A DNA stretch of 64,000 nt, taken from Nonomuraea deserti (GTDB taxonomy: Bacteria > Actinomycetota > Actinomycetes > Streptosporangiales > Streptosporangiaceae). Shown here one piece after another: positions 19,939 through 25,958 of the stretch (within the stretch, counting starts at the first letter, position 1; each line of letters opens with the position of its first letter). The notes below the pieces were generated by a model, which worked only from the letters and a program-made list of their open reading frames with translations, made no database searches and was not told where the DNA came from. The stretch is from positions 1 to 64,000 of the forward strand of contig NZ_SMKO01000026.1 of the NCBI RefSeq assembly GCF_004348685.1. Reading direction: 5' to 3'. The position numbers were made by a program, and so were the translations under genes.

Positions 19939-20901
19939 TCAGCGCAGCGGGAACCGGCCGGGGTCCACCGTGGCGAGGTCGCGCAGGAAGCCGCGTTTGT
20001 GGGGGTCGTCCCAGTCGTTCCACTCGGCGGCGTCGATCAGCGTCCACACGCCCCATTCGAGGAGCATGTAGCGCACGGCCACCGGCCACAGTGCCAGCTC
20101 GGCTTCGGTGAGCCGGACGTGCCGCCGGTACGCCGAGGAGAAGGCGGACCACTCGTCGGCCGTGAAGAGCCGGGGCGGCGCGGTGGCCATCTCGTTGTGG
20201 AACAGCAGCGCGGCCAGCGCCAGATCGAGGACGCGCGGCGCGTACTCGGCGTTGTCGGGGTCGACCAGCACGGGCGCCCCGTCGACGTAGACCAGGTTGT
20301 TGGCCTTGTAGTCCATGGACACCGCGGCCCGCGGGAGCCCGCCGTCGCGCACCGGCGGCAGCGTCTCCGCCATGAATGACTCCAGCCACGGCTCCAGGCG
20401 GGCCGGCACCTCGTCGCGCAGGTCGGGCGCGTGCTCGCCCAGCACCCGCCTGAGCCCGGCGACGTCCTCCTCCACCGAGGCGGCGTCGTGGTCGGGCCAG
20501 CCGAACTCCGGCATGCCGGGCCCGGCCGGCCGGGCGGCGTGGATGCGGCCCAGGAGGTCGCCGGCGGCGGCGACGTCGTCCGCGGAGCCGGTGTACGGGC
20601 GGCCGTCGACCCACGGGTAGGCCACCCAGACCTGGTCGCCGATCGGGGCCGGGTTGTCGACGGGCAGGGGGAGCGGGGTGACCACGCCGACGTCCTCCCC
20701 GGCGAGCCCCTCCACCCACCGGGCGATCGCGGCCGCGGCCGTCACGGGGCCGGTGGTCCGCTTGATCACGGCCTTGCCGCCGTCCAACCGGACGGGGAAG
20801 ACGGGGGCGTACGGATAGCAGGAGTGCTCCGGCCTGCCCGCCTCCCCGACAGCGAAGTGCTGGAAGACGTCGGCGAAGTCGGCCGCCCGGTCGTAGGCCA
20901 T
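19939..20901 (-). CDS. APH-fold phosphotransferase family protein
   Basis: This 320-residue protein has the aminoglycoside phosphotransferase/choline kinase fold. A Lys-bearing strand reads [11 protein letters not shown] and the linker is [10 protein letters not shown]. The catalytic loop reads [14 protein letters not shown], in which Asp and Asn are kept but the usual His is Ser. The metal-binding [17 protein letters not shown] follows. GGAGCG precedes the ATG. Substrates in this superfamily range from antibiotics to sugars and lipids, and nothing nearby indicates one. Antibiotic resistance should not be assumed. Confidence 0.8.
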
Positions 20902-21129: not shown

Positions 21130-22767
21130 TCAGGTGTCCTGCCCGCCCGCCATGCCGTCCGGGCGCGGGCCGAGCAGGCCGGCCGCGCGCTCGCGCATCT
21201 CCACCTTGCGGATCTTGCCGGTGACCGTCATCGGGAAGGAGTCCACCACGTGGACGTAGCGGGGGATCTTGTAGTGGGCGAGCCGGCCCGCGCAGAACTC
21301 CCTGACCCGCCCGGCCGTCAGCGGCTCCGCACCCGGCCGCATGACCACCCAGGCCATCAGCTCCTCGCCGTAACGCTCGTCGGGCACCCCGATCACCTGG
21401 ACGTCGCTGATGTCCGGATGGCCGTACAGGAACTCCTCGATCTCGCGCGGGTAGATGTTCTCGCCGCCGCGGATGACCATGTCCTTGATACGGCCGACGA
21501 TGGTGACGTAGCCGTCGTCGTCCATGGTGGCCAGGTCGCCGGTGTGCATCCAGCGCGCGGCGTCGACGGCCTCGGCCGTGGCGTCCGGCTGGCCCCAGTA
21601 GCCGAGCATGACCGAGTAGCCCCGGGTGCACAGCTCCCCGGGCACGCCCCGGGGGACGACCAGCCGGGTCTCCGGATCGACGACCTTGACCTCGATGTGC
21701 GGCATGGCCCTGCCGACGGTCTCGGTACGGCGGGCCAGCCCGTCGTCGCCGCGGGTCATCGTGGACACGGGCGACGTCTCGGTCATGCCGTAGCAGATGG
21801 CGACCTCGGCCATGTTCATCTCCGTGACGACCCGCTTCATGACCTCCACCGGGCAGGGGGAGCCGGCCATGATGCCGGTCCGCAACGTCGACAGGCCGTA
21901 CGCGCCGCTCAGGGCCAGCTCGGCGATGAACATCGTCGGCACCCCGTACAGGGACGTGCAGCGCTCCTCCTGCACGGCGCGGAGCGTGGCCTCCGGGTCG
22001 AAGCCCGGCGCGGGCAGCACGATGCACGCGCCGTGCGAGGTCGCGCCGAGGTTGCCCATGACCATGCCGAAGCAGTGGTACAGCGGGACCGGCAGGCAGA
22101 CCCGGTCGGCCGCTGTGTAACCGAGCAGCTCGCCGACGAAATAGCCGTTGTTGAGGATGTTGTGGTGCGACAGCGTGGCGCCCTTGGGGAAGCCCGTGGT
22201 GCCCGAGGTGTACTGGATGTTGATCGGGTCGTCGAACGCCAGCTCCGCCGCCCGCCGCCGCAGCGTGGCCGGGTCGCCGCGCCTGCCACTCGCGACCAGC
22301 TCGTCCCAGCCGCGCTCGCCGATGAACACGGCCTGCGCGAACCCGATCTCGCCGATCATCGCCCGGTAGTCGCTGGTCTTGTGGGAGACCGCGCTGATCA
22401 GCAGCCGCATGCCGGACTGCTCGACGACGTACCGCAGCTCGTGAGCCCGGTACGCCGGATTGACGTTGACCAGGATCGCGCCGATCTTCGCGGTGGCGTA
22501 CTGGACGAGCACCCACTCGGCGCAGTTGGGCGCCCAGATGCCCACCCTGTCGCCCTTGGCCACGCCACGGGCCAGCAGGCCGAGCGCCACCTCGTTCACG
22601 GCGGCGTCGAGCTCGGCGTAGGTCCAGCGGCGCCCGGCCGCCACGTCCACCAGCGCCTCGTGCCCGCCGAAACGGGCCACGGCGCGCTCGAAGTTCTCCC
22701 CGATCGTCTCGCCAAGCAAGGGGACACCGGACACGCCCGAGGCGTACGAGAGCAGTGCGTCAGCCAT
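21130..22767 (-). CDS. AMP-binding acyl-CoA synthetase (FadD-like)
   Basis: This 545-residue adenylate-forming enzyme carries the ATP-binding P-loop [11 protein letters not shown], the A5 motif CYGMTETSP, the A7 motif [14 protein letters not shown], the A8 hinge [20 protein letters not shown] and the catalytic Lys motif [12 protein letters not shown] near the C-terminus. It ligates a medium- or short-chain acid to CoA. The start at the ATG at 22767 follows GGCGGAG. A much longer open frame upstream is an artefact of the divergent gene. It is divergent from the Tm-1-like operon, 127 bases away, so the two may share control. Confidence 0.93.
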
Positions 22768-22894: not shown

Positions 22895-24136
22895 ATGCCG
22901 TCCGTCGTGCTGATCGGCACACTCGACACCAAGGGCGAGGAGTACGCGTGGCTGCGCAACCGGCTCGTGGAGCTGGGCAGCGACGTGGTCGTGGTGGACG
23001 CCGGCGTCGGCGTCCCCGGCCAGACGCTGCTCGCCGACGTCTCCAACGAGCAGGTCGCCGAGGCGGGAGGGGGCGACCTGCGGGCGCTGCGCTCCGCCGG
23101 CGACAGGGGCGCCGCCGTGACCACCATGGGCGAGGGCGCGGCGGAGATCCTGGCCCGGCTGCACGCCGACGGCCGCGCCGACGCCGTGCTGGCGCTGGGC
23201 GGCAGCGGCGGCTCGTCGATCGCCGCGCGGGCCGTGCGCGACCTGCCCATCGGCCTGCCCAAACTGATCGTGTCCACGATGGCGGCGGGAGACGTCTCGC
23301 CGTACGTCGGGGCGAAGGACGTCACGATGATGTACAGCGTGGTCGACATCGCGGGCATCAACCGGCTCTCCCGCGCCATCCTCGGCAACGCCGCCGCCGC
23401 GGCCGCGGGCATGGCCCGCGCGCACCAGCTCGCCAGGGCCGAGCTGACCACGGGCGGCTCCGACCGGCCGCTCGTCGGCGCGTCGATGTTCGGGGTGACC
23501 ACCCCGGCCGTCGACGCCGCGCGCGAGCGGCTCGCCGAGCTCGGCTACGAGGTGCTCGTCTTCCACGCGACCGGCGCGGGCGGGCGCGCGCTCGAAGGGC
23601 TCGCGGCGAGCCGGATGCTGGCCGGCGTGCTCGACCTGACCACCACCGAGCTGGCCGACGACCTCGTCGGCGGCGTCCTGTCCGCGGGGCCCGGCCGGCT
23701 CACCGCGGCCGGCGCGCACGGCGTGCCGCAGGTGGTCGCGCCGGGCGCGCTCGACATGGTCAACTTCGGCCCCCGCGACAGCGTGCCCGACGAGTTCGGC
23801 GACCGCCTGCTGTACGTGCACAACCCCACCGTGACGCTGATGCGCACCACGGCGGGCGAGATGGCCGAGCTGGGCCGCCGCGTGGCGGCCAAGCTCCGCG
23901 ACGCGAGCGGGCCCACCGTGCTGTTCGTGCCGCGCAGGGGCGTGTCCGCCCTGGACGCGCCCGGCGGCGCCTTCGCCGACCCGAAGGCCGACGAGGCCTG
24001 CTTCGAGGCCATGGCCGAGGGGCTGCGCGGCTCCGGCGTGCCCGTCGAGGAGCTCGACCTGCACGTCAACGACCCGGCCTTCGGCCGCGCCATGGCGGAG
24101 CGGCTGCACCACATGATCTCCGGAGGCGCCACGTGA
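22895..24136 (+). CDS. Tm-1-like ATP-binding protein (UPF0261 family)
   Basis: This is a 413-residue protein of the UPF0261 family. The start reads [19 protein letters not shown], with the diagnostic GTLDTKG. It is followed by the ATP-binding Gly-rich loop [13 protein letters not shown] and by a second domain beginning [19 protein letters not shown]. The family's best-known member is the N-terminal half of the tomato Tm-1 protein. The bacterial role is unassigned. Its TGA overlaps the next gene's GTG (GTGA), so the two are translationally coupled. The ATG at 22895 is chosen; a GTG four codons earlier is possible. Confidence 0.92.
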
Positions 24137-24954
24137 ACAGGCAGGACGTGCTCGACAGGCTCCGCGGCACGGTCGCGGCCGGGCAGCCGATCGTCGGCGC
24201 GGGAGCCGGCACCGGCCTGTCGGCCAAGTGCGCCGAGGCCGGCGGCGTCGACCTGATCATCATCTACAACTCGGGCCGCTACCGCATGGCCGGGCGCGGC
24301 TCGCTGGCCGGGCTGCTGCCGTACGGCGACGCCAACCAGATCGTCGTCGAGATGGCCTCCGAAGTGCTGCCGGTCGTGCGTGACACGCCGGTGCTCGCCG
24401 GCGTGTGCGGCACCGACCCGTTCCGCGTCATGCCGCTCTTCCTCGACCAGCTCAAGGCGATGGGGTTCGCCGGCGTGCAGAACTTCCCGACCGTGGGCCT
24501 CTACGACGGGACGTTCCGCCAGAACCTGGAGGAGACCGGCATGGGCTACGACCTGGAGGTGCAGATGGTGCGGCAGGCCCGCGAACGCGACCTCGTCACC
24601 GCCCCCTACGTCTTCGACGAGAGCCAGGCGCGGGCCATGGCCGAGGCGGGCGCCGACGTGCTGGTGCCGCACGTGGGGCTGACCACCAAAGGCAGCATCG
24701 GCGCCGGCACCGCCCTGACCCTCGACGAGGCGGCCGAGCGCGTGCAAACCATGCGGGACGCGGCCGTGGCCGTCCGGCCCGACGTGCTCGTGCTCTGCCA
24801 CGGCGGCCCGATCGCCGAGCCCGACGACGCCGCGTACGTCCTGTCGCGGACCAAGGGCGTGGTCGGCTTCTTCGGCGCCTCGTCCGTCGAGCGGCTGCCG
24901 ACCGAGCGTGCCATCACCGAGCAGGTCCGGGCCTTCAAGTCACTCACGTTCTGA
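24133..24954 (+). CDS. PEP-hydrolase-like TIM-barrel protein (Tm-1 C-terminal domain family)
   Basis: This is a 273-residue TIM-barrel protein of the phosphoenolpyruvate-hydrolase-like family. Typical stretches are [59 protein letters not shown] and a late [14 protein letters not shown]. The GTG start overlaps the stop of the UPF0261 gene. In plants the same two domains are fused in Tm-1, which strongly suggests the two bacterial products form one complex. The enzymatic reaction is not established for this family, and the 'hydrolase' label is by similarity only. Confidence 0.9.
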
Positions 24955-24969
24955 TAGCGAGGAGCCGCC

Positions 24970-25377
24970 ATGCACGTCAGCCCCGACAGCGTGCCGACGA
25001 TGGCCTTCGACTGGGGGTCGATCAAGTGGTTCGTCACCCCGTCCGCCGTCCAGGGGGCGAGCAGCACCCTGGGCGAGGTCATCGTCAACCCGGGCCGCGG
25101 GCACGCCCGCCACCACCACCCCGGCGCCGAGGAGATCATCTACGTCATCTCGGGCGAGGGCCGCCAGATGGTGGACGACGGCGAGGAGTTCACCATCAGA
25201 GAGGGCGACACCGTGCACATCCCCGCGGGCGTCTACCACTCGACGTACAACACCACGTGGCGGCCCTTGCGGCTGATCGTCACGTACACGCCCGGTGGAG
25301 AGGAGAAGGCGCTGGAGGCCGCGCCGGACCTCACGCTGCACGAGCCGGGCGGCGTCGCGGAGTGGCGTCAGGCCTGA
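24970..25377 (+). CDS. Small cupin protein
   Basis: This 135-residue single-domain cupin has motif 1 with GHARHHHPGAEEIIYVISGEG (metal His residues and Glu) and motif 2 in GDTVHIPAGVYHSTYN. The residues for a divalent metal are all present. It lies 15 bases after the TIM-barrel gene with GAGGAGC before the ATG, so it is the third gene of that operon. It could be a sugar or acid isomerase/dioxygenase or a binding protein. The repeated neighbourhood suggests it acts on the same small metabolite as the Tm-1-like pair. Confidence 0.9.
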   Translation: MHVSPDSVPTMAFDWGSIKWFVTPSAVQGASSTLGEVIVNPGRGHARHHHPGAEEIIYVISGEGRQMVDDGEEFTIREGDTVHIPAGVYHSTYNTTWRPLRLIVTYTPGGEEKALEAAPDLTLHEPGGVAEWRQA

Positions 25378-25439: not shown

Positions 25440-25958
25440 TTGGATGGTGATGACGGCTTCCGCGAATTCGTGCTCGCCCGGCAGCAATCGCTGATGCGGA
25501 CGGCGTACCTGCTCACGGGAGACGCCTACCTCGCCGAGGACCTGCTGCAGAGCGTCCTGGCCAAGGTCGTGGGCCAGTGGCACAAGCTGTCGGGAGACGG
25601 CAACCCCGAGGCGTACACGCGCAGGGCGCTGGTCAACCAGTACATCTCGTGGAAGCGCAGGCCGCGGCCCGAGGTGCTGAGCTCCAACGTGCCGGAACAT
25701 GGCGCCTCGTACGACGAGGTCGCGCTCGACCGGATCGTGCTGCGCGGGGCGCTGGCCAAGCTGACGCCCAAGCAGCGGGCGGTGATCGTGCTGCGCTTCT
25801 GGGAGGACCTCACCGAGGCGCAGACTGCCGAGGTGCTCCGCTGCTCGATCGGCAACGTCAAGAGCCAGTGCCACCACGCGCTGGCCCGCCTGCGCTCGCT
25901 GGCGCCCGAGCTCGGGCCCATGCTGTCGGATCCGGAGATCGTGGAGGTGACCCGATGA
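25440..25958 (+). CDS. ECF sigma factor (SigE-like, short actinobacterial type)
   Basis: This 172-residue protein has sigma region 2 at about residues 8-75 (LMRTAYLLTGDAYLAEDLLQ) and region 4 at about 105-160 (LTPKQRAVIVLRFWEDLTEA, then a helix-turn-helix ending SIGNVKSQCHHALARLR). There is no long C-terminal extension. The start must be TTG at 25440, because GAGGAG sits seven bases before it and no ATG or GTG exists in frame near it. The stop overlaps the next gene's ATG (GATGA). The coupled neighbour is a membrane protein and the likely controller. Confidence 0.92.
   Translation: MDGDDGFREFVLARQQSLMRTAYLLTGDAYLAEDLLQSVLAKVVGQWHKLSGDGNPEAYTRRALVNQYISWKRRPRPEVLSSNVPEHGASYDEVALDRIVLRGALAKLTPKQRAVIVLRFWEDLTEAQTAEVLRCSIGNVKSQCHHALARLRSLAPELGPMLSDPEIVEVTR

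Follow-up and report, generated by a model that had tools for sequence, protein, structure and literature searches.

A UPF0261/PF09370 gene pair with a cupin in Nonomuraea deserti and a proposed kinase role for UPF0261

Results and Discussion

The window, by which we mean the whole 64,000-nucleotide stretch of DNA that was analysed, contains three genes in one row on the plus strand, encoding a UPF0261 protein, a PF09370 barrel and a metal-type cupin. This order, together with a four-base overlap between the first two genes, had been proposed in a sequence-only reading of the locus and is confirmed by the sequence itself and by Pfam matches. The features of the locus are:

19939-20901: APH-type phosphotransferase family gene, near the operon
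21130-22767, minus strand: AMP-binding acyl-CoA synthetase, divergent and upstream of gene 1
22895..24136, plus strand: gene 1, UPF0261 (Tm-1 N-terminal half; proposed small-molecule kinase), ATG start, TGA end, 413 aa
24133..24136, plus strand: GTGA start/stop overlap of genes 1 and 2, 4 bases, read from the sequence
24133..24954, plus strand: gene 2, PF09370 TIM barrel (Tm-1 C-terminal half, 'phosphoenolpyruvate hydrolase-like'), GTG start, 273 aa
24970..25377, plus strand: gene 3, small cupin, 135 aa, metal-type site HxH...E...H, WG motif shared with the operon's cupin group, Cupin_2 E 1.6e-18
25440-25958: sigma-70-family factor, downstream of the cupin

Gene 1 matches PF06792 (E 1.3e-61) and PF23189 (E 1.9e-89), its N- and C-terminal UPF0261 domains reaching 208 and 299 bits where 27 is required, and gene 2 matches PF09370 (E 4.5e-134, 446 bits), with a GGAGG at 24122-24126 ahead of its GTG start. 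Both families are present as a single copy in the host genome (10.69 Mb). Among solved structures gene 1 matches tomato Tm-1 (3wry, E 1.3e-84) and 9mpy (E 1.7e-76), while gene 2 matches Mll9387 (2p10, E 3.1e-108 over 269 residues), which was used as its structural stand-in; no match to the gene 2 protein was found among phage records. The domain matches and the matches to 3wry and 2p10 bear out the earlier suggestion that the pair is a split counterpart of plant Tm-1, a relation already published: the accessible part of Yang et al. 2016 (PMC5028733) describes the two domains as fused in plants and encoded by separate genes elsewhere, with Tm-1-like genes in almost every land plant sequenced and both domains also in bacteria, archaea and fungi. 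The same part reports co-occurrence and co-evolution with a tree correlation of 0.886 and suggests an interaction. The fusion/split relation, the co-occurrence, the co-evolution and the suggested interaction are thus already known.

UPF0261 and PF09370 are a real and widely conserved enzyme pair. Among 249 genomes of the order, PF06792 was found in 99 and PF09370 in 93 (92 above the cut-off); 93 genomes have both families, six UPF0261 alone, none PF09370 alone and 150 neither (Fisher p 7.5e-62, a value that ignores relatedness). At each of the 97 PF09370 places in these genomes PF06792 lies on the same contig and the same strand within 3 kb. A survey of 346 genomes of the phylum, scored for presence only, gave PF09370 in 26 and PF06792 in 27. 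We also scanned named bacterial and archaeal genomes for PF09370 and analysed the best 80 of 593 confirmed loci, which come from actinomycetes, Chloroflexi, Firmicutes-type bacteria, planctomycetes, Poribacteria and others and, because they were chosen via PF09370, are silent on solo UPF0261. UPF0261 is present in 75 of these best 80 of 593 loci, at a distance of at most 250 bases in 70 and at most 60 bases in 60, and 15 of the 74 same-strand pairs show the -4 spacing seen in the window. In five of the 80 (L195, L211, L221, L230 and L231) UPF0261 is absent from the stretch examined, and six lack a same-strand UPF0261 there. The sequence-only reading had considered that homologous genes might usually be unlinked in other genomes, which is contradicted by linkage at 97 of 97 places of the order and 74 of the best 80 of 593 loci.

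The row also occurs on plasmids. UPF0261-PF09370-cupin rows were found on Rhizobium, Sinorhizobium and Mesorhizobium plasmids, a Haloterrigena plasmid carries PF09370-cupin-UPF0261 with four-base overlaps, and a similar row is present on a Halopiger plasmid. A fusion of UPF0261 and PF09370 in one stop-to-stop frame was found neither in the window nor in loci L091-L160 and L171-L250. A same-genus genome (G164, locus L266, G164:C4, about 301743-301984) contains only short UPF0261 and PF09370 stubs followed by the cupin, which is joint decay of the pair. The pair takes a different form in loci L117 and L118. In L117 its two genes are separated by a GMC oxidoreductase and a protein of 160 aa that matches no Pfam family, with MmgE/PrpD downstream and a BMP-type ABC transporter upstream, and L118 has the same layout as judged from clusters. 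The Klebsiella and E. coli plasmids listed share an unannotated stretch of 49 residues that resembles PF09370 (query residues 3-51, 53% identity); 57 Klebsiella records matched overall. Genes in the relatives were called with a home-made GC-frame caller, so some starts and small genes are wrong (the start of window gene 2 was misplaced) and some of the relatives' 'operons' extend into unrelated genes, e.g. FtsX/ABC genes in Actinomadura.

An HMM of the cupin group, built from the window protein, found matches in 29 of 70 loci in a first set and in 37 of 80 in a second (the best 80 of 593), so the cupin recurs as a member of the operon, as had been proposed. Among the 37 cupins from the best 80 of 593 loci, 26 lie no more than 300 bases from the pair: 23 follow it, two precede it and one stands between the two genes. 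W15, G16, H48, H50 and E55 are invariant and H90 nearly so in an alignment of 32 sequences including that of the window, whose cupin carries the residues of a predicted 3-His/1-Glu metal site. Some loci without a cupin (Ensifer, Bosea, Azospirillum) have an SRPBCC protein after the pair. The acyl-CoA synthetase, also suggested as a partner, fared differently: tblastn at E 1e-20 against 160 loci of relatives returned seven rows, only two of them above 40% identity and both from the window's genus, so we regard it as a neighbour and not as a conserved partner. The APH-type gene had no tblastn match at the same threshold in the 160 loci.

As to the barrel, its GASS-ER-E residues are invariant, lie near the C-terminus and might suit a phosphate site. 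Of 143 operon neighbours in relatives 104 were scanned (cupins and some short ones were excluded), and they include seven Gfo/Idh/MocA dehydrogenases, six AP_endonuc_2 isomerases and parts of ABC sugar transporters. In Paenibacillus, Brevibacillus and Neobacillus a sugar ABC transporter, a cupin, Gfo/Idh, AP_endonuc_2, UPF0261 and PF09370 occur together. These neighbours hint at polyhydroxylated, possibly cyclic substrates, and nothing in the window names one. An inositol-like pathway was dropped as an assignment, since the window lacks such neighbours, and stays a lead on the substrate class. Taken at its word, the Pfam name of the family would mean genuine phosphoenolpyruvate or phosphonopyruvate hydrolase-type activity of PF09370 and place the pair in central metabolism; it is a name only, and the patchy distribution of PF09370 (seen in 93 of the 249 genomes from the order and in 26 of the 346 from the phylum) together with the sugar-type neighbours indicates peripheral catabolism instead, which makes this explanation improbable.

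PF09370 is fused to a sigma-54 activator and HTH_8 in proteins of Bosea, Mesorhizobium and Azospirillum, which lie beside enzyme-type UPF0261/PF09370 operons (L099:11315-13051, L166:11853-13682 and L167:6087-7868). They are apparently sensors derived from the enzyme, and their place beside the operons would fit a barrel with a diffusible ligand. The fusions, like the older name 'TIM-barrel signal transduction', could also suggest that UPF0261 and PF09370 form a signalling system. We consider this very improbable, as the fusions are separate paralogues adjoining an enzyme-type operon, the window barrel matches no output domain and its relatives are found among metabolic genes.

The route to a proposed function is given by the other operon settings of UPF0261. 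We compiled 83 hand-picked loci, 82 of them with UPF0261: 23 were chosen as solo genes or remnants, another 50 lie in the phylum of a 'Deltaproteobacteria bacterium' genome and ten in a further phylum; counts from this set reflect the choice and not the family, and neighbour clusters were named from one scanned representative each. In the first of these phyla UPF0261 occurs in 43 of 198 genomes with up to six copies. Five settings can be described. In the first, UPF0261 stands with a creatininase-family protein, a class II aldolase, a Zn-alcohol dehydrogenase and LacI or GntR regulators, in some cases with a tripartite tricarboxylate transporter, a Thermus plasmid being among the examples; class II aldolase lies near UPF0261 in nine of the 83 hand-picked loci, creatininase in 13 and PF09370 in ten. 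The second, from the phylum of the 'Deltaproteobacteria bacterium' genome, is a phenol-type setting with the phenylphosphate synthase subunits PpsA-like (17 of the 83 hand-picked loci) and PpsB-like (14), UbiD (17), UbiX (10) and CoA ligase (17), and at times molybdenum-hydroxylase subunits or a CBS protein nearby. The third is found on plasmid pSYA3-2 of Sphingobium yanoikuyae, with the order 4HBT thioesterase, BKACE, UPF0261, biotin carrier, biotin carboxylase, PYC_OADA carboxyltransferase and NagD-like HAD; the 17-kb stretch around this UPF0261 contains no annotated PF09370 protein, and a search of the plasmid found no PPDK_N kinase. In Shinella and Agrobacterium UPF0261 is followed by a HAD hydrolase and aminotransferases, and in actinomycetes solo UPF0261 genes occur near succinyl-CoA-synthetase-like genes. 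Two or three UPF0261 genes stand together, some in tandem, in seven of the 83 hand-picked loci (e.g. L274, L276, L278, L296, L300 and L309), and heteromeric forms are possible.

We reconstructed a tree of 227 UPF0261 proteins, taking in only those of 330-520 aa. The best split unites 137 of the 143 PF09370-paired proteins, the window's included, with 13 others (support 0.786). The aldolase-type proteins (11 of 13 plus one other) and the phenol-type proteins (28 of 32 plus 12 others) form groups as well, and the biotin-carboxylase type does not (3 of 10).

The structure 9mpy is, by its title, Saro_1862 of Novosphingobium aromaticivorans, a UPF0261 domain protein with acetovanillone bound. The first step of the Novosphingobium acetovanillone pathway is reportedly carried out by a single-component kinase, MarK, and from species, ligand and date we infer that MarK is Saro_1862. 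In SYK-6 and Rhodococcus a two-component kinase, AcvAB/HpeHI, acts in acetovanillone catabolism, HpeCBA accepts the phosphorylated substrate only and HpeD takes the phosphate off, as stated in the accessible part of PMC9618137. The UPF0261 protein of pSYA3-2 is close to 9mpy (E 9e-173), and by gene order it precedes a carboxylase/phosphatase set at the point where SYK-6 and Rhodococcus have AcvAB/HpeHI, although the order of biotin carboxylase and carboxyltransferase is reversed compared with hpeCBA and the likeness to HpeCBA is one of Pfam domains only.

The window UPF0261 has the family and fold of 9mpy and retains the conserved core residues. 9mpy retains every one of the 30 residues that do not vary across 17 diverse UPF0261 proteins, a figure that is partly built in because the 17 include its close Sphingobium relative, and 40 of the 55 residues invariant in 65 PF09370-paired proteins are kept as well. 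With 39% identity between the two proteins and 15 of these 55 residues differing in 9mpy, the substrate or even the activity may have changed. The positions at which the PF09370-paired proteins depart from 9mpy include F199, T203, M288, N290, F291, P298, L315 and M316. Carboxylase or phosphatase partners as in a MarK-like pathway were found neither in the operon, with its PF09370 and cupin genes, nor among the three flanking genes scanned (synthetase, APH-type protein and sigma factor). No nucleotide was present in any structure looked at, and the comparison of UPF0261 with phosphofructokinase (PF00365, a profile from 18 related PFK sequences) gave an hhalign probability of 0.1%. In public annotation the family goes under 'Tm-1-like ATP-binding domain-containing protein', which is a label only.

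Alternatively, UPF0261 in this branch could be a substrate-binding or activating subunit of a heteromeric lyase or hydrolase, with the barrel as its catalytic part and no use of ATP. PF09370 rarely occurs without UPF0261, the plant protein fuses both, and the unrelated catalytic partners beside which UPF0261 stands fit an accessory subunit too, as do the phenol-type operons, where UPF0261 lies beside a dikinase and thus is not simply the 'missing kinase'. Against this, the solved relative binds a phenolic substrate in a species whose pathway reportedly starts with a single-component kinase, and the Sphingobium plasmid lacks a PPDK_N-type kinase; we therefore regard the accessory role as unlikely.

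The window UPF0261 is most likely a small-molecule kinase that would pass a phosphorylated intermediate to the barrel, and we put the probability that the operon is a phosphorylate-then-process catabolic module of UPF0261 kinase, barrel and cupin helper at about 0.6. By analogy with its relatives, UPF0261 would bind its small-molecule substrate together with ATP, with the interdomain cleft as the probable site, and would spend ATP on phosphorylating a hydroxyl or enol oxygen. The barrel, probably translationally coupled and docked to UPF0261 as in the plant fusion Tm-1, would take the phosphorylated intermediate and break or make a C-C (or ester) bond, and the cupin may assist in a metal-dependent manner, the likeliest reactions being isomerisation or oxidation of the substrate or product. 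The reaction had been called unknown: no assigned chemistry was found for the pair, and the possibilities are narrowed to UPF0261 being most likely a kinase.

More tentatively, UPF0261 might be a general small-molecule kinase set before unrelated bond-breaking or carboxylating enzymes, namely PF09370 barrels, class II aldolases, carboxylase/phosphatase sets and UbiD systems. The window pair might then be a widespread channelling kinase-lyase complex and Tm-1 its fused descendant, a metabolic enzyme with surfaces later turned against the tobamovirus replicase. With partners this exchangeable (barrel, aldolase, carboxylase, UbiD), UPF0261 would act as an activation step that different catabolic pathways can reuse. 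Placing it with a kinase makes two uncharacterised families, and with them the original role of a crop resistance gene, directly testable by biochemistry. The kinase reading of the pair is new and absent from the literature searched. That literature, outside of which most subscription papers lie, contains no assay of a UPF0261-PF09370 pair, and the accessible parts of PMC6867892, PMC6882159, PMC12607616 and PMC11837543 hold nothing further on function.

Comparison with known systems

Plant Tm-1 and Tm-1-like proteins (tomato; 3wrw, 3wry) are single fused proteins without a cupin, whereas the window has separate genes, and the known role of tomato Tm-1 is to block tomato mosaic virus RNA replication. 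Mll9387 (2p10) from Mesorhizobium is a PF09370 protein like window gene 2. Saro_1862 (9mpy), probably the kinase MarK, is 39% identical to the window UPF0261 with an rmsd of 7.1, perhaps reflecting a different domain opening; its close Sphingobium relative stands with BKACE, carboxylase and phosphatase genes, in contrast to PF09370 and the cupin in the window. For the two-component kinase HpeHI/AcvAB the same step is proposed, a phosphorylation ahead of C-C chemistry, but its Pfam families differ from UPF0261, HpeI being an ATP-grasp and HpeH a swivel-domain protein according to the accessible part of PMC12167813.
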